In this document: in pieces, positions 6,772 through 54,880 of the stretch
Numbering within the stretch: position 1 is the stretch's first letter
Layout of the letters: the number at the start of each line of letters is the position of its first letter
IMG/VR virus record: IMGVR_UViG_3300033992_001502
Coordinates: 1 to 64,000 of that record
DNA: 64,000 nt
DNA from: a virus
Strand: one strand, 5' to 3'
The notes under the pieces: model-generated
Seen by the model: only the letters and a program-made list of their open reading frames with translations
Databases searched by the model: none
What the model was told of the DNA's origin: nothing
Position numbers and translations under genes: made by a program

Positions 6772-7578
6772 ATGCATAAATTAAGTTTCGTTTGCACGTC
6801 CTATCGTAGGTACCGTTGCGTTGAACGAATAATCGAACAGTACTTACAACAAGACTATCGAAATGCTGAGCTAATTATCTTAAATACTGATACTGACAAT
6901 CCATTTCGGTTATCTGATGGATTGCTGTATGCAAATATTACAGTAATTAATAATTCAATTGATTACGTTACTGGATTACCGTATACTAATCGTGGAGCCA
7001 TTTGTAGAGATGCAGTCTCCCATGCAACTGGCGACTACTTCATGTTAGCTGATGACGATGATGTTTACTTGCCTTGGCATTTTAGACAAGCAGTTGAAGG
7101 TATAATTGAAATCGGGCACGATTCATGGAAACCTGAGATGAGTATGTTTGCGGCTCCTAATAAGCTAGAGCTTGTTCGTAATACAATGGAGGCATCCGTT
7201 ATTGTAAAGATGCACAGAATCAGAGAGATTGGTTTCCGAACTGATGCAACCGGGTATGAAGGTTTAAGCTGGTACACCAAGCTTAGAGATGAGGGTCAAT
7301 TGGACGAGCACAACCCACGATATATTCCTTCTTACTGCTTTAACTGGTCAGATCCAGCTGAATTGGCTGGCCATAAACAGAGCGGCGATATCAACAATCC
7401 AAATAACTTTGAGAACCATAAGTTAAGTTCAAGAGATATTTCAGATAAGCCACTAGATCGCTGCGGCTCTCTAGAGATTACTAAGTTCTATCAAAAGTAC
7501 TTTGATTTCTTACGAGCAAATCAAGATAAGTTCAGTCAAGATCTTTGGGGCAGGTACGCAAAAACGTATATCGGTTAA
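6772..7578 (+). CDS. GT-A family 2 glycosyltransferase
   Basis: 268 residues. It begins with LSFVCTSYRRYRCVERIIEQ and has ADDDD at residues 93-97, the metal- and nucleotide-sugar-binding acidic motif of GT-A enzymes, followed by YLPWHF. It probably transfers a sugar to DNA, a virion protein or a host surface glycan; the substrate cannot be read from sequence. An ATAAATAA late-type element lies just upstream (6752), suggesting late expression. Confidence 0.8.
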   Translation: MHKLSFVCTSYRRYRCVERIIEQYLQQDYRNAELIILNTDTDNPFRLSDGLLYANITVINNSIDYVTGLPYTNRGAICRDAVSHATGDYFMLADDDDVYLPWHFRQAVEGIIEIGHDSWKPEMSMFAAPNKLELVRNTMEASVIVKMHRIREIGFRTDATGYEGLSWYTKLRDEGQLDEHNPRYIPSYCFNWSDPAELAGHKQSGDINNPNNFENHKLSSRDISDKPLDRCGSLEITKFYQKYFDFLRANQDKFSQDLWGRYAKTYIG

Positions 7579-28413: not shown

Positions 28414-28501
28414 GGAGGATTGGCAGAGTGGTCGATCGCGGCAGTCTTGAAAACTGTTGTACCGCAAGGTACCGTAGGTTCGAATCCTACATCCTCCGCC
28501 A
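28414..28501 (+). tRNA. tRNA-Ser(TGA)
   Basis: Class II tRNA with acceptor GGAGGAT/ATCCTCC, anticodon loop CTTGAAA, long variable arm (ACCGCAAGGT) and TTCGAAT loop. CCA is encoded. Lies alone between protein genes. Confidence 0.95.
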
Positions 28502-30839: not shown

Positions 30840-30874
30840 TTTTTAGTAAAGGGAAACCTTTTTTAAAAAGTTGG

Positions 30875-30880
30875 TATAAT
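30875..30880 (+). promoter_or_regulatory. -10-like element of leader 1 and tRNA array
   Basis: GGTATAATAAC, 35 nt before the GTG of leader 1. ATAAATAA at 30887 lies just after it. Confidence 0.6.
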
Positions 30881-30915
30881 AACTAGATAAATAACTAGAC
30901 AAAAAAATTAAACTC

Positions 30916-31047
30916 GTGCAAATAACTACGAACATATCAAAAAATACTCAAAACTGGAATCAGTATCCGGCAGGCACAGTTAATGTGATTGCAATGGAGA
31001 CGATTAAAGATTTTGGGGTATTGCGAGGTTCTAGTGGTATAAGTTAA
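30916..31047 (+). CDS. Leader peptide of the first tRNA array
   Basis: 43 codons with a GTG start (the frame is closed by TAA at 30892). The peptide reads, in pieces, QITTNISKNTQN, WNQYPAGTVNV, IAMETIKDFG, VLRGSSGIS. It contains Phe, Lys, Ile, Met, Trp, Gln, Asp, Glu, Ala, Thr, Gly, Val, Pro, Asn and Tyr, which is every amino acid of the recognisable tRNAs in the array that follows, and it lacks Cys and His, whose tRNAs are in the second array. A terminator starts 25 nt after the stop. Near its 3' end, 31024-31031 is complementary to the 5' terminator arm. I read it as an attenuator leader; it is too short for family detection. Confidence 0.7.
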   Translation: MQITTNISKNTQNWNQYPAGTVNVIAMETIKDFGVLRGSSGIS

Positions 31048-31112: not shown

Positions 31113-31188
31113 GGTGAGGTAGCTCAGATGGTAGAGCACAGGACTGAAAATCCTGGTGTCGGCGGTTCGATCCCGCCCCTCACCACCA
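31113..31188 (+). tRNA. tRNA-Phe(GAA)
   Basis: Acceptor GGTGAGG/CCTCACC, anticodon loop CTGAAAA, T-loop TTCGATC, CCA encoded. First gene of the main array, 11 nt after the attenuator-like terminator. Confidence 0.95.
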
Positions 31189-31266
31189 ACAAAAAAATGA
31201 ATAAGAATATGAAACGTAAACGCTAAAGGCCCAGTGACTCCCAGAGTTACAGGTCTAAATACACAG

Positions 31267-31340
31267 GTCTTCGTAGCTCAGTTGGTTAGAGCACCTCACT
31301 TTTAATGAGGGAGTCACAGGTTCGAGTCCTGTCGGGGACA
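31267..31340 (+). tRNA. tRNA-Lys(TTT)
   Basis: Acceptor GTCTTCG/CGGGGAC (two GU pairs), anticodon stem CCTCA/TGAGG with loop CTTTTAA. No CCA encoded (CTA follows). Confidence 0.94.
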
Positions 31341-31346
31341 CTAAAC

Positions 31347-31423
31347 TGGAATATAGCTCAATTGGTTAGAGCATTCGCCTGATACGCGAAAGGTTATAGG
31401 TTCGATTCCTATTATTCCAACCA
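31347..31423 (+). tRNA. tRNA-Ile(GAT)
   Basis: Acceptor TGGAATA/TATTCCA, anticodon loop CTGATAC, T-loop TTCGATT, CCA encoded. Confidence 0.95.
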
Positions 31424-31428
31424 AACAT

Positions 31429-31506
31429 TGCGGGATGCGTAGAAAGCGGTTATCTCGTCAGTCTCATAAGCTGAAGTTCCCGGTTCGAGTCCGGGTCCCG
31501 CAACCA
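31429..31506 (+). tRNA. tRNA-Met(CAT), elongator type
   Basis: Acceptor TGCGGGA/TCCCGCA is fully paired, unlike an initiator; anticodon loop CTCATAA. D-arm is unusual. CCA encoded. Could also be an Ile2 tRNA. Confidence 0.88.
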
Positions 31507-31514
31507 AAAGAATA

Positions 31515-31587
31515 CACGGATGTGGTGCAATGGTAGCATGCGGGTCTCCAAAACCCTAGATGGGAGTTCGAATCTCTCCGACCGTGC
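31515..31587 (+). tRNA. tRNA-Trp(CCA)
   Basis: Anticodon loop CTCCAAA between GGGT and ACCC; acceptor CACGGAT/GACCGTG has one mismatch. No CCA encoded. End coordinates uncertain by 1-2 nt. Confidence 0.88.
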
Positions 31588-31628
31588 AAATCTTTCGAAA
31601 GAAAGTGACTAAATTAAACCTAATGTGG

Positions 31629-31634
31629 TATAGT
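31629..31634 (+). promoter_or_regulatory. -10-like element inside tRNA array
   Basis: GGTATAGT in the spacer before tRNA-Gln; possible internal promoter. Confidence 0.45.
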
Positions 31635-31683
31635 AATCATATAAGTTTAACAAGAGTTCTTTGACTTATTGGAGATTGAAAAT

Positions 31684-31754
31684 TGTCCTGTGGTGTAATG
31701 GCAGCACGTCTGGTTTTGGTCCAGAAGATCGAGGTTCGAATCCTTGCGGGACAA
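31684..31754 (+). tRNA. tRNA-Gln(TTG)
   Basis: Acceptor TGTCCTG/CGGGACA, anticodon stem TCTGG/CCAGA with loop TTTTGGT. Full CCA not encoded. Confidence 0.93.
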
Positions 31755-31759
31755 CATAT

Positions 31760-31831
<72 letters not shown>

Positions 31832-31836
31832 CTAAT

Positions 31837-31942
31837 GATTAGATGGGCGTAATGCGGGATGGTACCCAAGTCCCGAACTCGAAAGAGGTAAGGTTGTCTA
31901 CTCCGTCTTGCACGGTATCCGGTTCGAGTCCGGCTCTAATCA
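31837..31942 (+). tRNA. tRNA-like element with extra internal sequence
   Basis: A perfect 7 bp acceptor (GATTAGA/TCTAATC) and a TTCGAGT T-loop are present, but the total length is 106 nt and no clear 7 nt anticodon loop can be placed. Internal hairpins CCGT-CTTGC-ACGG and CTC-GAAA-GAG are possible. Either a tRNA with an insertion, a decayed tRNA or a tRNA mimic. Confidence 0.6.
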
Positions 31943-31947
31943 CCCGG

Positions 31948-32000
31948 ATCCATGCACGTCGAGCGCAAACCAATCGCTCTTCAGGTAGATTTGCATGGAT
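31948..32000 (+). ncRNA. Structured tRNA-array spacer, 53 nt
   Basis: Closed by a perfect 9 bp stem (ATCCATGCA 31948-31956 with TGCATGGAT 31992-32000) around an inner hairpin GAGCG/CGCTC (31961-31979). No coding potential. Candidate small RNA or processing element. Confidence 0.55.
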
Positions 32001-32051
32001 AAACAACCCGTCACGGTATACCCACAGGGTAGGAGTGAACTGGAGAGAAAT

Positions 32052-32123
32052 GGTCCTGTAGTTAATCGGCTATAACGCCGCCCTGTCACGGCGGTATGCC
32101 GGGTTCGATTCCCGGTGGGACCG
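32052..32123 (+). tRNA. tRNA-Asp(GTC)
   Basis: Acceptor GGTCCTG/TGGGACC, anticodon stem CCGCC/GGCGG with loop CTGTCAC. No CCA encoded. Confidence 0.94.
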
Positions 32124-32125
32124 CG

Positions 32126-32307
32126 AAAGTATATCAACAGAAGTCCGACTTGCACGGATGAAAGGAACCTTGGCTCCATGGGATTAGCTACCCAACCGGA
32201 GAGATATAAATGACCCAAGGTACTCTGTTCAGGTCCCTGCTCTACTGTGCACAGTATCAGGTTATGGGGAACAAACCATAAGTAAAAACCGGAGCACGGT
32301 ATACTTT
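32126..32307 (+). ncRNA. Structured tRNA-array spacer between Asp and Glu
   Basis: Outer 8 bp stem AAAGTATA/TATACTTT (32126-32133, 32300-32307). Inside, ACCTTGG/CCAAGGT (32167-32173, 32215-32221) encloses CTCC/GGAG, and TACTG-TGCA-CAGTA forms a hairpin. No ORF of note. Confidence 0.5.
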
Positions 32308-32312
32308 TATTT

Positions 32313-32384
32313 GGCCCGTTAGTCTATCGGTTAGGACACGCCCCTTTCACGGGTGAGAGACGAGTTCGATTCTCGTACGGGCTA
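32313..32384 (+). tRNA. tRNA-Glu(TTC)
   Basis: Acceptor GGCCCGT/ACGGGCT, anticodon loop CTTTCAC, T-loop TTCGATT. No CCA encoded. Confidence 0.94.
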
Positions 32385-32386
32385 CT

Positions 32387-32526
32387 AAGAACAACGGTCT
32401 CTCCGGCCAATGTGATGTCGACAATCACGGTCGGATCAAGAGTTCACCACCCTCAGCCTGGGCCCAGAGAAAACTCTGATGAAGCTGTTAAGATTGGAGC
32501 GAGACGGGTACTCCAACGTTGTTCTT
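32387..32526 (+). ncRNA. Structured tRNA-array spacer between Glu and Ala
   Basis: Outer perfect 10 bp stem AAGAACAACG/CGTTGTTCTT (32387-32396, 32517-32526). Inner stems include CCGGCC/GGTCGG enclosing GTGAT/ATCAC, and AGAGTT/AACTCT. A 140 nt multibranched RNA is predicted. Confidence 0.58.
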
Positions 32527-32530
32527 AAAT

Positions 32531-32607
32531 GGGCTGTTAGCTCAGTTGGCTAGAGCACCGCACTTGCACTGCGGGGGTCGAGAGTTCGAGTCTCTCACGG
32601 TCCACCA
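32531..32607 (+). tRNA. tRNA-Ala(TGC)
   Basis: Acceptor GGGCTGT/ACGGTCC, anticodon stem CCGCA/TGCGG with loop CTTGCAC. CCA encoded. Confidence 0.95.
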
Positions 32608-32612
32608 ACATT

Positions 32613-32686
32613 GCCTCCTTAGCTCAGTTGGCCAGAGCGCCTCACTTGTAATGAGGATGTCGGCGGTTCGAATCCGTCAGGAGGCT
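32613..32686 (+). tRNA. tRNA-Thr(TGT)
   Basis: Acceptor GCCTCCT/AGGAGGC, anticodon stem CCTCA/TGAGG with loop CTTGTAA. No CCA encoded. Confidence 0.95.
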
Positions 32687-32865
32687 CACATCGTATTAGG
32701 GTCGTGCCGCATTTTGCCACGATACGAAATAGACTTGAGAGGATCAGAGGCGGCCGTGACTACCTCAAGTCGAAGTTAGATAGTGTCTCGGTACGCTCTG
32801 GTTAGTCGCAAGACTTTCTAACGACGAGGTCCCGGTGGGCAGAACGCGTCTGATCCCACCCACTT
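32687..32865 (+). ncRNA. Structured tRNA-array spacer between Thr and Gly
   Basis: Several hairpins: TCGTAT/ATACGA with inner CGTG/CACG, GACTTGAG/CTCAAGTC, GTTAGA/TCTAAC enclosing AGTC-GCAA-GACT, and GGTGGG/CCCACC. No ORF of note. Confidence 0.5.
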
Positions 32866-32941
32866 GCGGGAGTAGCTCAGTTGGTAGAGCGCAACCTTGC
32901 CAAGGTTGAGGTCGCCGGTTCGAACCCGGCCTCCCGCTCCA
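32866..32941 (+). tRNA. tRNA-Gly(GCC)
   Basis: Acceptor GCGGGAG/CTCCCGC, anticodon stem CAACC/GGTTG with loop TTGCCAA. CCA encoded. Confidence 0.95.
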
Positions 32942-32944
32942 TAA

Positions 32945-33017
32945 GCGGATGTCGTATAATGGCTTATTACTCCAGCCTTCCAAGCTGGAGATGCGAGTTC
33001 GATTCTCGCCATCCGCT
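32945..33017 (+). tRNA. tRNA-Gly(TCC)
   Basis: Acceptor GCGGATG/CATCCGC, anticodon stem CCAGC/GCTGG with loop CTTCCAA. No CCA encoded. Only 3 nt after the other Gly tRNA. Confidence 0.95.
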
Positions 33018-33098
33018 CGACCGGTGGCTCCCTTAATGGTTCGAGGCCGACCTCAAACATCGGTGATACGTCATACAGGGGGCGAAAGCGTATCAAAC

Positions 33099-33171
33099 AG
33101 TCCTTTAGCTCAGTTGGTAGAGCATCTGTTTTACATGCAGAGGGTCGTAGGTTCGAATCCTACAGGGACTA
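33099..33171 (+). tRNA. tRNA-Val(TAC)
   Basis: Acceptor AGTCCTT/AGGGACT, anticodon stem TCTGT/GCAGA with loop TTTACAT. No CCA encoded. Confidence 0.94.
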
Positions 33172-33459
33172 CTATGAGCAAGAGATACTCAGTAAGATTG
33201 GTCGCATTCTTTAAAAAAGCGATGGTAGTGAAAAAGTCCTCGACCTTAATGGGGGATCGATTCGGGTAAACGTGAGCAAGACTCTGCCGCGCCGACGTAG
33301 AGAGTTGACAGGTTTTTATGTGGTAAGACACTAATGAAAAAGACTTATTGGGGGAGGACCGTATAGTCTAAGACGTCAATAAGGGATATGGTTCTCGAAA
33401 CAGTCAGAGAAACCCGTTAAAATCCAGTCTTCGTACAAGTCTCAGTATGGAGCAAATTA
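33172..33459 (+). ncRNA. Long tRNA-array spacer between Val and Pro
   Basis: 288 nt without a credible gene. Possible stems: TCGC/GCGA near 33212-33231, CTTATTG/CAATAAG (33344-33350, 33377-33383), AGTCT hairpin near 33427. Structure less clear than in other spacers. Confidence 0.4.
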
Positions 33460-33538
33460 TCGAGATGTTGGGGAGTCCGGTTACCCCGCCTGCTTTGGGA
33501 GCAGGAGAACTCGCAGGTTCGAATCCTGCCATCTCGAC
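33460..33538 (+). tRNA. tRNA-Pro(TGG)
   Basis: Acceptor TCGAGAT/ATCTCGA, anticodon stem CCTGC/GCAGG with loop TTTGGGA. No CCA encoded. Confidence 0.94.
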
Positions 33539-33638
33539 AAAAGAACCTTAGTAGAGGCTGACTCCACCAGCTAGGACGTAACGTTCAAGCCTAGCTGAAA
33601 GCACGCGCTTGCGCTGAAATGGTGGTCGAGGTTCTTTT
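33539..33638 (+). ncRNA. Structured tRNA-array spacer between Pro and Asn
   Basis: Outer perfect 10 bp stem AAAAGAACCT/AGGTTCTTTT (33539-33548, 33629-33638), then CCACC/GGTGG, AGCTAGG/CCTAGCT (33569-33575, 33590-33596) and a GC-rich hairpin at 33600-33615. A compact three-way junction of 100 nt. Confidence 0.6.
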
Positions 33639-33645
33639 ATTTTAT

Positions 33646-33720
33646 TGGGTGTTAGCTCAGCGGTAGAGCTCTCGACTGTTAATCGAGTGGTCCCAGGTTC
33701 GAATCCTGGACACCCAGCCA
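33646..33720 (+). tRNA. tRNA-Asn(GTT)
   Basis: Acceptor TGGGTGT/ACACCCA, anticodon stem CTCGA/TCGAG with loop CTGTTAA. CCA encoded. Confidence 0.95.
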
Positions 33721-33725
33721 AGGTT

Positions 33726-33814
33726 GATTAGGGAATGATTGTGTCAATAGTTCGAGAGTGAATGCTGACTGACATAATCGGAGTTTGCAGGCATTCACCA
33801 GAGTAATGCTAATC
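33726..33814 (+). ncRNA. Predicted pseudoknot RNA between Asn and Tyr
   Basis: Stem GATTGTGTCA/TGACATAATC (33737-33746, 33770-33779) interleaves with GTGAATGC/GCATTCAC (33758-33765, 33791-33798), an H-type pseudoknot, enclosed by GATTAG/CTAATC (33726-33731, 33809-33814). An AAATGAGA/TCTCATTT hairpin follows. Confidence 0.6.
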
Positions 33815-33858
33815 GTAAAATGAGATGTCCACTGAACCATCTTCTCATTTCCTTACCT

Positions 33859-33945
33859 GCCGTAGCGCTGAAGTTGGAGAGTCAGGACAGACTGTAAATC
33901 TGTTGTCGTAAGGCTGAGTAGGTTCGAATCCTACCTGCGGCACCA
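33859..33945 (+). tRNA. tRNA-Tyr(GTA)
   Basis: Class II tRNA: acceptor GCCGTAG/CTGCGGC, anticodon stem ACAGA/TCTGT with loop CTGTAAA, long variable arm. CCA encoded. Confidence 0.94.
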
Positions 33946-33996
33946 AGTAGTTTTGAGGTGGGCGAATTCTACTCTAAAAAAATAATCCCTCCACCA

Positions 33997-34070
33997 GGAC
34001 CTTTAGCTCAGTTGGTTAGAGCAGCGCACTCATAATGCGAAGGTCTCAGGTTCGAGCCCTGAATGGTCCA
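33997..34070 (+). tRNA. tRNA with CAT anticodon (Met or Ile2)
   Basis: Acceptor GGACCTT/ATGGTCC with one mismatch, anticodon loop CTCATAA. A third CAT tRNA suggests an Ile2 (lysidine-modified, reading ATA); the array leader peptide uses ATA three times. No CCA encoded. Confidence 0.88.
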
Positions 34071-34123
34071 CAAATTTTTTAGATTTTTTATCATCCGATT
34101 AAACCTAAATCGATTTTTAATAG

Positions 34124-47974: not shown

Positions 47975-48055
47975 GCCCTCTTGGCGGAATTGGTAGACGC
48001 GCTAGACTTAGGATCTAGTCTTAGGGTGAGAGTTCGAGTCTCTCAGAGGGTACCA
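47975..48055 (+). tRNA. tRNA-Leu(TAG)
   Basis: Class II: acceptor GCCCTCT/AGAGGGT, anticodon stem CTAGA/TCTAG with loop CTTAGGA. CCA encoded. TATAAT promoter-like site at 47937. Confidence 0.95.
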
Positions 48056-48207: not shown

Positions 48208-48328
48208 AGTCAGGTGGCGGAATTGGTAGACGCTATGTGGTGCGGAACTCGCTTCGTTCACCACTCCCTTAGCGGGGAAAACAAAGGTAAGAGATGTGAC
48301 CATGCAGGTTCGAATCCTGTCCTGACTA
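48208..48328 (+). tRNA. tRNA-Leu-like element with insertion
   Basis: Acceptor AGTCAGG/CCTGACT, a typical Leu D-arm (GGCGGAATTGGTAGACGC) and a normal T-arm are intact, yet the molecule is 121 nt, about 35 longer than a Leu tRNA. A hairpin GTGGTG/CACCAC fills the place of the anticodon arm. A later CTTAGCG loop would give anticodon TAG. Possibly interrupted, decayed or a mimic. Confidence 0.62.
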
Positions 48329-53767: not shown

Positions 53768-53792
53768 ATAAAACCAATTAGAAATATTGTAG

Positions 53793-53798
53793 TATATT
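53793..53798 (+). promoter_or_regulatory. -10-like element 6 nt before leader-2 ATG
   Basis: AGTATATT, 6 nt, ATG at 53805. Would drive the leader peptide and the second tRNA array. Confidence 0.68.
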
Positions 53799-53804
53799 AT
53801 TAAC

Positions 53805-53876
53805 ATGAAAACATTATCCTTACATTCACTTTGTTTACGTTCGTTGAGATTAAGTCTCGATGTGTCTAGGCCGTGA
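53805..53876 (+). CDS. Leader peptide of the second tRNA array
   Basis: 23 codons, M-K-T-L-S-L-H-S-L-C-L-R-S-L-R-L-S-L-D-V-S-R-P. Seventeen residues are Leu (7), Ser (5), Arg (3), His (1) or Cys (1), exactly the amino acids of the eight tRNAs that follow. Codons include TTA, TTG, CTT, CTC, TCA, TCG, AGT, AGA, AGG, CGT, CAT and TGT, so each downstream tRNA has at least one codon here. TATATT ends 6 nt before the ATG (leaderless). 53864-53872 pairs with the terminator's 5' arm. I read it as an attenuator. Confidence 0.78.
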   Translation: MKTLSLHSLCLRSLRLSLDVSRP

Positions 53877-53930
53877 TGTAAGATAAGAAAACTTCTACTG
53901 AAAAGGCTTAGACTAACGTTTAAGCCTTTT
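53864..53930 (+). promoter_or_regulatory. Attenuator of the second tRNA array
   Basis: Strand 1 GTCTAGGCC (53864-53872, just before the leader stop) can pair with GGCTTAGAC (53905-53913; 9 bp, one GU). Strand 2 also forms the terminator with TAAGCCTTTT (53921-53930). Confidence 0.75.
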
Positions 53931-53933
53931 TTG
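53901..53933 (+). terminator. Terminator between leader 2 and second tRNA array
   Basis: 10 bp stem AAAAGGCTTA/TAAGCCTTTT followed by a T-run, 6 nt before tRNA-Cys. Confidence 0.85.
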
Positions 53934-53938
53934 TTTTT

Positions 53939-54008
53939 GGTCAGTTTGGTCGTGGAGGCCGTCAGGTCTGCAAAATCTGAGGAGTTGGTTCGATTCCAAC
54001 ATTGACCT
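53939..54008 (+). tRNA. tRNA-Cys(GCA)
   Basis: Acceptor GGTCAGT/ATTGACC, anticodon loop CTGCAAA. First tRNA after the second leader and terminator. No full CCA. Confidence 0.93.
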
Positions 54009-54016
54009 CAAAAACT

Positions 54017-54100
54017 GGAAGAGTAATTCAGCTGGCGCTGGACCTAGTCTTGAAAACTAGTGGTACCTTCGGGTATGGGGATCGATACCTCACTCTTCCG
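54017..54100 (+). tRNA. tRNA-Ser(TGA), second copy
   Basis: Class II: acceptor GGAAGAG/CTCTTCC, anticodon loop CTTGAAA, variable arm with CCTTCGGG. The T-loop is ATCGATA instead of TTCGATA. No CCA encoded. Confidence 0.92.
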
Positions 54101-54115
54101 CTCGTTCTTTTACAT

Positions 54116-54193
54116 GGTAGACGTAGCTCAGTTGGTTAGAGCGCCTGATTGTGGTTCAGGAGGTCGTCGGTTCGATCCCGATCGTTTACCCCA
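54116..54193 (+). tRNA. tRNA-His(GTG)
   Basis: Anticodon stem CCTGA/TCAGG with loop TTGTGGT; the extra G(-1) opposite C73 typical of His tRNA is present. CCA encoded. Confidence 0.94.
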
Positions 54194-54196
54194 ACT

Positions 54197-54272
54197 GCCT
54201 CTGTGGGTAAACTGGTAAAGCCGCTTGACTTAGGATCAAGAGATTTTGTGGGTTCGAATCCCACCAGAGGTA
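54197..54272 (+). tRNA. tRNA-Leu(TAG), second copy
   Basis: Acceptor GCCTCTG/CAGAGGT (one GU), anticodon stem CTTGA/TCAAG with loop CTTAGGA. Short variable arm for Leu. No CCA encoded. Confidence 0.92.
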
Positions 54273-54279
54273 CAAAAAT

Positions 54280-54360
54280 GCTCCCGTGGTGAAACTGGTA
54301 AACACGCTCGGCTTAAGATCGAGTGCGCAATGCTTGTGGGTTCGAGTCCCACCGGGAGTA
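54280..54360 (+). tRNA. tRNA-Leu(TAA)
   Basis: Acceptor GCTCCCG/CGGGAGT, anticodon stem CTCGG/TCGAG with loop CTTAAGA. No CCA encoded. Confidence 0.94.
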
Positions 54361-54365
54361 CTAAT

Positions 54366-54453
54366 GGAGAGTGAAGCAACAAGGTGTTGTCGCCGCCTGC
54401 TAAGCGAGCGGTTCCCGAAAGGGAATGGGGATCGAGACCTCCACTCTCCGCCA
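54366..54453 (+). tRNA. tRNA-Ser(GCT)
   Basis: Class II: acceptor GGAGAGT/ACTCTCC, anticodon loop CTGCTAA, variable arm CCCGAAAGGG. T-loop ATCGAGA. CCA encoded. Confidence 0.92.
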
Positions 54454-54454
54454 T

Positions 54455-54528
54455 AGTCCAGTAGCTCAGTGGAATAGAGCAACCGCCTTCTAAGCGGTAG
54501 GTCGCAGGTTCGAGTCCTGCCTGGATTA
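54455..54528 (+). tRNA. tRNA-Arg(TCT)
   Basis: Acceptor AGTCCAG/CTGGATT, anticodon stem CCGC/GCGG with loop CTTCTAA. No CCA encoded. Confidence 0.94.
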
Positions 54529-54540
54529 CAAATTATTTAG

Positions 54541-54546
54541 TACAAT
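54541..54546 (+). promoter_or_regulatory. -10-like element 6 nt before ATG
   Basis: AGTACAAT, 6 nt, ATG at 54553, after tRNA-Arg(TCT). Confidence 0.6.
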
Positions 54547-54552
54547 ATAGCT

Positions 54553-54783
54553 ATGGAAGAAATAACAAACGCAGAAAGAGAATTCATGTTCTATAAGATT
54601 GGAACAGCTGGATCGTTTCACACAGCCTTGATTCAGACAATTATGAAGGCTGATATTCGTAATCAGGCTAAGCTTGCACTAGGTTTTCCCGAAGATGTTC
54701 AAGTGGTTCAACGTTTTCAAAACGAAAGTGGCTACTGGGAAGGTCTGCAAGAGCGCTGGAAAGCTGCACATAACCGAAACTAA
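54553..54783 (+). CDS. Small hypothetical protein between tRNAs
   Basis: 76 residues, helical, basic C-terminus (GLQERWKAAHNRN). Lies between the Arg(TCT) and Arg(ACG) tRNA genes. TACAAT ends 6 nt before the ATG, predicting a leaderless mRNA. Function unknown. Confidence 0.65.
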   Translation: MEEITNAEREFMFYKIGTAGSFHTALIQTIMKADIRNQAKLALGFPEDVQVVQRFQNESGYWEGLQERWKAAHNRN

Positions 54784-54792
54784 TTAGTACCT

Positions 54793-54865
54793 GCCCCGGT
54801 AGTTCAATGGATCAGAACACACGGCTACGGACCGTGAGATGGGGGTTCGAATCCCTCCTGGGGTA
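54793..54865 (+). tRNA. tRNA-Arg(ACG)
   Basis: Acceptor GCCCCGG/CTGGGGT, anticodon stem CACGG/CCGTG with loop CTACGGA. Needs A34-to-inosine editing to read CGT/CGC/CGA. No CCA encoded. Confidence 0.94.
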
Positions 54866-54880
54866 CTTAACTTAATCAAC

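Follow-up and report, generated by a model that had tools for sequence, protein, structure and literature searches.

The two tRNA arrays of the stretch of DNA analysed here, together with the tRNA arrays of many other huge phages, are very probably under ribosome-mediated transcription attenuation with feedback from charged tRNA; judging from sequence, we give this reading a probability of about 0.9. The stretch, called the window below, is the first 64 kb of the 270,962-bp IMG/VR virus record IMGVR_UViG_3300033992_001502, from a phage that encodes T4-type topoisomerase II subunits. Leader-peptide attenuation is a long-known mechanism by which amino-acid operons such as trp, his and leu sense charged tRNA. 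In the scenario that we propose, RNA polymerase would transcribe a leader ORF in which the codons 5' of an antiterminator arm are mostly cognate to the downstream tRNAs. When charged tRNAs are plentiful, the ribosome would reach the end of the ORF and cover the arm, the terminator would form and no more tRNA would be made. If any cognate charged tRNA became scarce, the ribosome would stall 5' of the arm; by binding the terminator's 5' half, the arm would then form an antiterminator that lets the polymerase read through into the tRNA array. Such charged-tRNA feedback would allow the phage to make up for tRNAs that host shut-off or anticodon-nuclease defences have removed. We infer the sign of the response, a stall turning the array on, from the RNA pairing; leader and array are presumably transcribed as a single unit, with the leader translated and the feedback acting on charged-tRNA supply.

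The array at 53939-54866 of the window (array 2) and its leader (leader 2) are composed as follows.

53790..53804, + strand: promoter-like AT-rich element TAGTATATTATTAAC, adjoining the leader 2 start codon (putative promoter)
53805..53876, + strand: leader 2 ORF, 23 codons, peptide MKTLSLHSLCLRSLRLSLDVSRP; homologs in L010, L011, L012, L015 and L031
53864..53872, + strand: antiterminator arm GTCTAGGCC, within the ORF; 2 pairs changed on both sides across 5 relatives
about 53900..53933, + strand: intrinsic terminator, T-run included, between the ORF and array 2
53905..53913, + strand: terminator 5' arm GGCTTAGAC, partner of 53864-53872
53939..54009, + strand: tRNA-Cys(GCA), ARAGORN
54017..54099, + strand: tRNA-Ser(TGA), missed by ARAGORN in the window, labelled tRNA-Sec-like by Rfam; the L010 homolog is called Ser(tga)
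54117..54193, + strand: tRNA-His(GTG), ARAGORN
54197..54273, + strand: tRNA-Leu(TAG), ARAGORN
54280..54361, + strand: tRNA-Leu(TAA), ARAGORN
about 54366..54450, + strand: tRNA-Ser(GCT), read from the sequence; missed by ARAGORN in the window, called in the L010 homolog
54455..54529, + strand: tRNA-Arg(TCT), ARAGORN
54793..54866, + strand: tRNA-Arg(ACG), ARAGORN; 3' of a 76-aa ORF

The original prediction had described this locus from the sequence alone, and the leader 2 ORF has exactly the length and the residue counts given there (7 Leu, 5 Ser, 3 Arg, 1 His and 1 Cys). Its terminator between leader 2 and array 2 was recovered, as was the pairing of 53864-53872 with 53905-53913, which comprises 9 bp with one G-U. 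ARAGORN finds six of the eight tRNAs that had been listed, and the two tRNA-Ser genes are real as well according to the sequence, the Rfam score of the one at 54017-54099 and the calls in L010. Even without Ser, 12 of 22 leader 2 residues are cognate, against 3.2 expected (z = 5.4); this cognate content is not due to chance. The sequence GTATATTATTARC immediately 5' of the leader 2 ATG is kept in L010, L012, L015 and L031. The 76-aa ORF (54553-54783) sits within array 2 and has its own TAGTACAATATA element directly 5'. Neither a leader nor a terminator is evident for two isolated genes elsewhere in the window, tRNA-Ser at 28414 and tRNA-Leu at 47975.

The window holds a second and larger case, leader 1 with array 1, which the original prediction had missed.

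30871..30888, + strand: promoter-like element TTGGTATAATAACTAG, kept 5' of leader 1 in homologs (putative function)
30916..31047, + strand: leader 1 ORF, 43 codons, GTG start, peptide MQITTNISKNTQNWNQYPAGTVNVIAMETIKDFGVLRGSSGIS; homologs in L047, L048, L051, L053, L054 and L055
31024..31031, + strand: antiterminator arm CGAGGTTC, with a compensatory change in L048
31071..31102, + strand: intrinsic terminator GAACCTCGAA...TTCGAGGTTTTTT
31113..34071, + strand: array 1, tRNAs for Phe Lys Ile Met Trp Gln Met Asp Glu Ala Thr Gly Gly Val Pro Asn Tyr Met, ARAGORN

Here the arm CGAGGTTC pairs with the terminator stretch GAACCTCG. Array 1 serves the 15 amino acids that are absent from array 2, and leader 1 encodes all 15; the only residues 5' of its arm that fall outside this set are one Ser and an arm-adjacent Leu. 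Since leader 1 has the 15 of array 1 and leader 2 the 5 of array 2, the leaders partition the 20 amino acids as the arrays do.

We then asked how far leader composition follows the array in a wider sample. A leader was taken as the longest ATG ORF of 12-60 codons ending no more than 80 nt 5' of a terminator and overlapping no tRNA, with GTG starts also allowed for the window and its relatives; an array comprised the tRNAs up to the next leader, with gaps of at most 1500 nt. From the list made by these rules, one representative per leader type was picked by hand, giving 21 pairs, some of which may share ancestry. Two of them were not independent of the hypothesis, namely the Gln leader of G013, which came from a Gln pattern, and leader 2 of the window, the reported finding; the others were not selected by composition. 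Enrichment of the leaders for the amino acids of their own arrays reached a mean z of 4.23 over the 21 pairs, against 0.15 ± 0.40 (maximum 2.39) for permuted pairs. In the permutation check that had been proposed with the original prediction, leader composition tracks the own array, as 0 of 200,000 permutations of these 21 leader/array pairs matched the observed fit. The own array ranked first for 15 of 21 leaders with a proteome background and for 19 of 21 with a leader-pool background, and across the 21 pairs all array amino acids but one are represented in the leader. Frames +1 and +2 and the reverse complement of the same 21 pairs gave no composition match. Codon tuning to isoacceptors beyond the amino acid was not significant (99 of 108 covered, against 96 ± 2.5). 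The leaders are short ORFs in which codons cognate to the product are over-represented.

An intrinsic terminator lies between the leader ORF and the first regulated gene, and the end of the ORF can form with the terminator 5' arm an antiterminator that is mutually exclusive with it. The ORF stretch complementary to the terminator 5' arm pairs better than in dinucleotide shuffles (mean z -3.1, Fisher P 2e-18), and it sits near the ORF end in most leaders; in leader MNNNISNMIQQQQQTYV no arm was found within the ORF. Co-evolution was assessed in eight families of homologous leaders by pairing each arm with its own terminator and with those of its relatives. The own terminator pairs better in 4 of 8 families (HFWK, P < 5e-5; RS, 3e-4; NLVIT, 0.005; IG, 0.017); in the Q, PD, L1 and L2 families the preference was not significant, L1 and L2 having few distinct arms. 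Together with the composition match and the presence of the antiterminator, the co-evolution in these four families supports, as far as sequence comparison reaches, the attenuation originally proposed for leader 2.

The regulatory codons are placed so that a ribosome stalled at them would free the arm and one that has reached the ORF end would mask it. Residues cognate to the array make up 226 of the 313 between codon 7 and the arm (72%, 25% expected) and 42 of the 178 between the arm and the stop (24%, 22% expected). In a folding model in which the ribosome covers 13 nt from the A-site codon and the nascent RNA is folded, cognate codons coincide with the stalls that free the antiterminator, with an odds ratio of 5.1 (P 7e-20), residues within one leader being not fully independent. 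For leader 2, modelled stalls at codons 3-17 leave 7-9 arm pairs, a stall at codon 18 leaves four and stalls from codon 19 onwards leave none; 5' of the arm, the cognate codons run from 4 to 18. The cognate codons thus end where a stalled ribosome would start to mask the arm. Ribosome-mediated attenuation predicts this layout, which is hard to explain otherwise. At equilibrium the terminator in the window is more stable than the antiterminator (-17.0 versus -13.1 kcal/mol), so that the switch must work kinetically. When nascent RNA is folded with no ribosome, the antiterminator forms in most leaders, and the untranslated state may therefore be ON. The full-length fold of leader 2 contains a conserved stem, possibly a protector (1:2) structure that competes with the antiterminator.

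Both window leaders are retained in relatives. L006-L009 carry leader 2 unchanged, and it has diverged in L010, L011, L012, L015 and L031. Between the window and L015, 8 residues differ before the arm, and 7 of the 8 replacements remain within C, S, H, L and R (3.0 expected, P 0.0035); in this sequence comparison, composition is kept rather than sequence. Seven different versions of leader 1 were found, and the single indel within its ORF measures three bases. Compensatory changes in the antiterminator, which we take as supporting evidence only, were seen in leader 2 (U-A to C-G and C-G to U-A, five sequences) and in leader 1 (C-G to U-A in L048, seven sequences). Conservation of the terminator without the ORF had been named beforehand as a finding that would speak against attenuation, and it was encountered in one relative only. 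In G003/L037 (1100-1190, minus strand), the leader 1 promoter and terminator are kept and the ORF with its antiterminator arm is deleted; the array is reduced as well, most tRNAs being gone and tRNA-Phe apparently degenerate. Because the arm and most of the array are lost too, this locus looks like decay rather than a counter-example. As a point against the match, some leaders still have codons for amino acids whose tRNA is no longer in the array, as with Ser, Lys, Asn and Val in G004.

The search for a short ORF and terminator before the tRNA arrays of related phages, suggested with the original prediction, was carried out and such pairs were found. The layout of short ORF, antiterminator arm, terminator and tRNA array precedes many different arrays in phages of 250-735 kb. 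Genomes were sampled through a topoisomerase search that disregarded leaders, and the main arrays were taken from LR745206 (W01), LR756502 (W02), LR756504 (W03), LR756500 (W04), LR756501 (W05), Lak-B1 (W06) and XacN1 (W07). Many arrays in W01, W02, W03 and W05 have a short ORF and a terminator 5' of them, and the peptide differs between arrays; the public records with attenuators are LR745206, LR756501, LR756502, LR756504 and Lak-B1 (MK250020). The following leaders were found before the tRNA genes indicated.

MTTSFQQQQQQQINRTD: four tRNA-Gln genes
MTTTQQIQQQQINQTD: Gln tRNA
MKTIAMIIRMRIIRPKMLG: Arg-Ile-Met tRNAs
MKTKKQQYKQYQPQYK...: Tyr/Gln/Lys tRNAs
MTTNSTHKNFSKSHKWFSNQ...: His/Phe/Trp/Lys tRNAs
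MNTITNIASYESYYEEG...: Glu/Tyr tRNAs
MKTINVNIAPVNPQPQDQDP...: Pro/Asp tRNAs
MKAMILSLCLSLSLSLQ...: Leu/Ser/Cys tRNAs
MLFNSNISVKFTPAPAVAFRRGTGTGTGTC...: Arg/Thr/Val/Ala/Gly/Pro tRNAs
MKNMVRKYNDYCINDKLKMLIG (W05, relaxed terminator rule): Cys/Ile/Asp/Asn/Tyr tRNAs
MKTLNMTYCMHPVCGMIHMFPCGGGR... (Lak-B1, a Prevotella phage; relaxed terminator rule): His/Pro/Arg/Gly tRNAs
MNNINNIYSIYRNCNINYNMEEICIDMINDYIN... (330-kb member of the MNNNISNMIQQQQQTYV phage group): Glu/Asn/Met/Cys/Ile/Tyr tRNAs
L103, 544-612, minus strand: leader of five tRNA-Leu genes, all six leucine codons used

Two further scans, in which leader alignments served as queries, brought up 39 leader/array pairs spread over 16 contigs. 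Merged leaders precede merged arrays, as in L173 (MKTTLNIACYYEGGNPI..., then Ile/Gly/Glu) and L182 (MRTIINIEAIGYAYEAG..., then Tyr/Glu/Ile/Gly/Ala). A pattern made of a poly-Gln leader, a terminator and then a Gln anticodon matched 17 viral contigs, among them a second phage group (leader MNNNISNMIQQQQQTYV); tRNA-Gln genes are present in 15 of the 17. In bacterial genomes the poly-Gln leader/terminator pattern had 15 matches, of which 0 of 15 had a tRNA-Gln gene, so that we regard them as chance hits; bacterial genomes scanned with the leader 1 alignment gave no match. No leader/terminator match was found before the tRNAs of the Xanthomonas phage XacN1, whose two candidates are remote from tRNAs or overlap a tRNA, nor before those of the 462-kb LR756500, and the relaxed search gave none either; the large Lak-B1 array L098 likewise had no match. 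In nearly all cases examined, a tRNA is the first gene 3' of the terminator. The exception is L095 (LR756501, minus strand), where a ribosomal protein L7/L12-like gene, recognised by eye, lies between the leader terminator and the tRNAs.

It is likely, in our judgement, that huge phages have in this way a genome-wide, self-limiting tRNA supply, with one codon-sensing attenuator per array and up to all 20 amino acids covered; the phage would gauge the decoding capacity of its host by amino-acid group and make the missing tRNA sets, also in response to anticodon nucleases. If so, leader-peptide attenuation would act on tRNA genes, and the tRNA pool would be fed back through the tRNAs' own decoding.

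Alternatively, the ORFs could encode genuine small proteins or have arisen by chance, with the terminator merely insulating the array from upstream genes. Terminators 5' of tRNA arrays could indeed be simple insulators, and G003 retains a terminator without the ORF; however, insulation accounts neither for a composition match that 0 of 200,000 permutations reach and that is absent from other frames, nor for the co-evolution of arm and terminator, nor for cognate enrichment that ends at the arm. The composition, co-evolution and cognate-enrichment tests refute this as a general account, and we give it a negligible probability. A short ORF preceding regulated genes would also suit an arrest peptide, in which the nascent chain itself jams the ribosome when a ligand is present, in the manner of TnaC or ErmCL. 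Such control is very improbable, since composition and not sequence is conserved between the window and L015 in leader 2, and since arrays of different content have different peptides; a regulator of the TnaC/Erm type was rejected because its peptide should be conserved, whereas here the sequence changes while the composition is kept.

Two other explanations keep the attenuator and differ in what it responds to. The input might be amino-acid starvation, that is uncharged tRNA generally, and the arrays would then be induced as one component of the response to it. Charged tRNA, and hence amino-acid supply, is what known leader-peptide attenuators sense, and the leaders could not distinguish a missing tRNA from an uncharged one. 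Yet extra tRNA does not cure a lack of amino acid, the tRNAs come first after the terminator in nearly all cases with one ribosomal-protein-like gene excepted, and the match is array-specific, with disjoint sets within one phage, as expected of feedback on the product; we hold starvation to be an unlikely input. A specialised form of the charged-tRNA feedback preferred here, which we consider possible but put somewhat below even chances, is that the leaders are counter-defence sensors that turn on replacements when host anticodon nucleases (PrrC, RloC, PARIS AriB, retron-Eco7 PtuAB) deplete tRNAs. In another phage, infection is rescued from a tRNA-cleaving defence by phage tRNAs (PMC11555353), and evasion of this kind has been proposed more widely (PMC10264068), which makes a sensor of tRNA loss plausible, and the splitting of tRNAs among separately controlled arrays would permit local responses; the two leaders of the window phage, however, span all 20 amino acids, probably a wider range than the targets of known nucleases.

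The trpL, hisL, leuL, pheL and ilv/thr attenuators share with charged-tRNA feedback on phage arrays a short ORF rich in regulatory codons followed by an intrinsic terminator, and an antiterminator 5' strand near the ORF end, so placed that an upstream stall should give readthrough. Unlike them, the phage leaders control tRNA genes and not biosynthetic enzymes, a single leader can hold codons for as many as 15 amino acids, the set of amino acids is split among several leaders of a genome, and the product itself would be sensed. T-box riboswitches likewise answer tRNA charging by transcription attenuation, but they have no leader peptide and need a Stem I specifier and a T-box sequence; Rfam gave no match to a T-box or other riboswitch in the window. 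What phage tRNAs are for has been a matter of debate over decades, the candidates being codon compensation, host tRNA loss and nuclease escape. Phage tRNAs also replace lost host tRNAs in the arrays of T5-like and Mycobacterium phages (PMC11555353, PMC10264068); these papers describe a strong promoter or anticodon-loop mutations and no feedback control, and neither text contains 'leader' or 'attenuat'. Many tRNAs in arrays are likewise a feature of Lak phages and of the huge uncultured phages described by Al-Shayeb et al. 2020 and in similar work; Al-Shayeb et al. 2020 give tRNA counts in a text without 'leader' or 'attenuat'. A search of the open-licence full-text literature and of key papers, which does not prove priority, yielded no prior description of leader-peptide attenuation on tRNA genes. 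Within that literature, the novelty claimed for leader 2 stands, and leader-peptide attenuation on phage tRNA genes, with the amino acids distributed over several leaders, looks new. It would extend the mechanism from amino-acid operons to tRNA genes and give a function to a class of unannotated short phage ORFs. A sensor built into each tRNA set would say what the phage reacts to, which turns the question into one that reporters can address, and it suggests compact multi-amino-acid biosensors of tRNA availability.

Several minor features of the arrays were noted. The long spacers of array 1 (32124-32310, 32390-32530, 32690-32865, 33020-33098, 33175-33460, 33540-33645 and 33720-33858) resemble structured RNAs and have no Rfam match at the gathering threshold; some have complementary ends, for example AGAACAACG...CGTTGTTCTTA, and the spacers are partly kept in relatives. 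Positions 31835-31945 of the window are tRNA-like, with a T-arm-like stretch GGTATCCGGTTCGAGTCCGGCTCTAATCAC and no ARAGORN call, and are kept in L037. Weak tRNA-family matches, neither called by ARAGORN, occur in G000 at 48208-48328 and 263702-263792 (34.5 and 30.9 bits). Within the array 1 of a relative, L053 carries at 7133-7210 a tRNA with the anticodon TTA, possibly an ochre suppressor, and tRNAs with a CTA anticodon are present in L100, L106 and L146.
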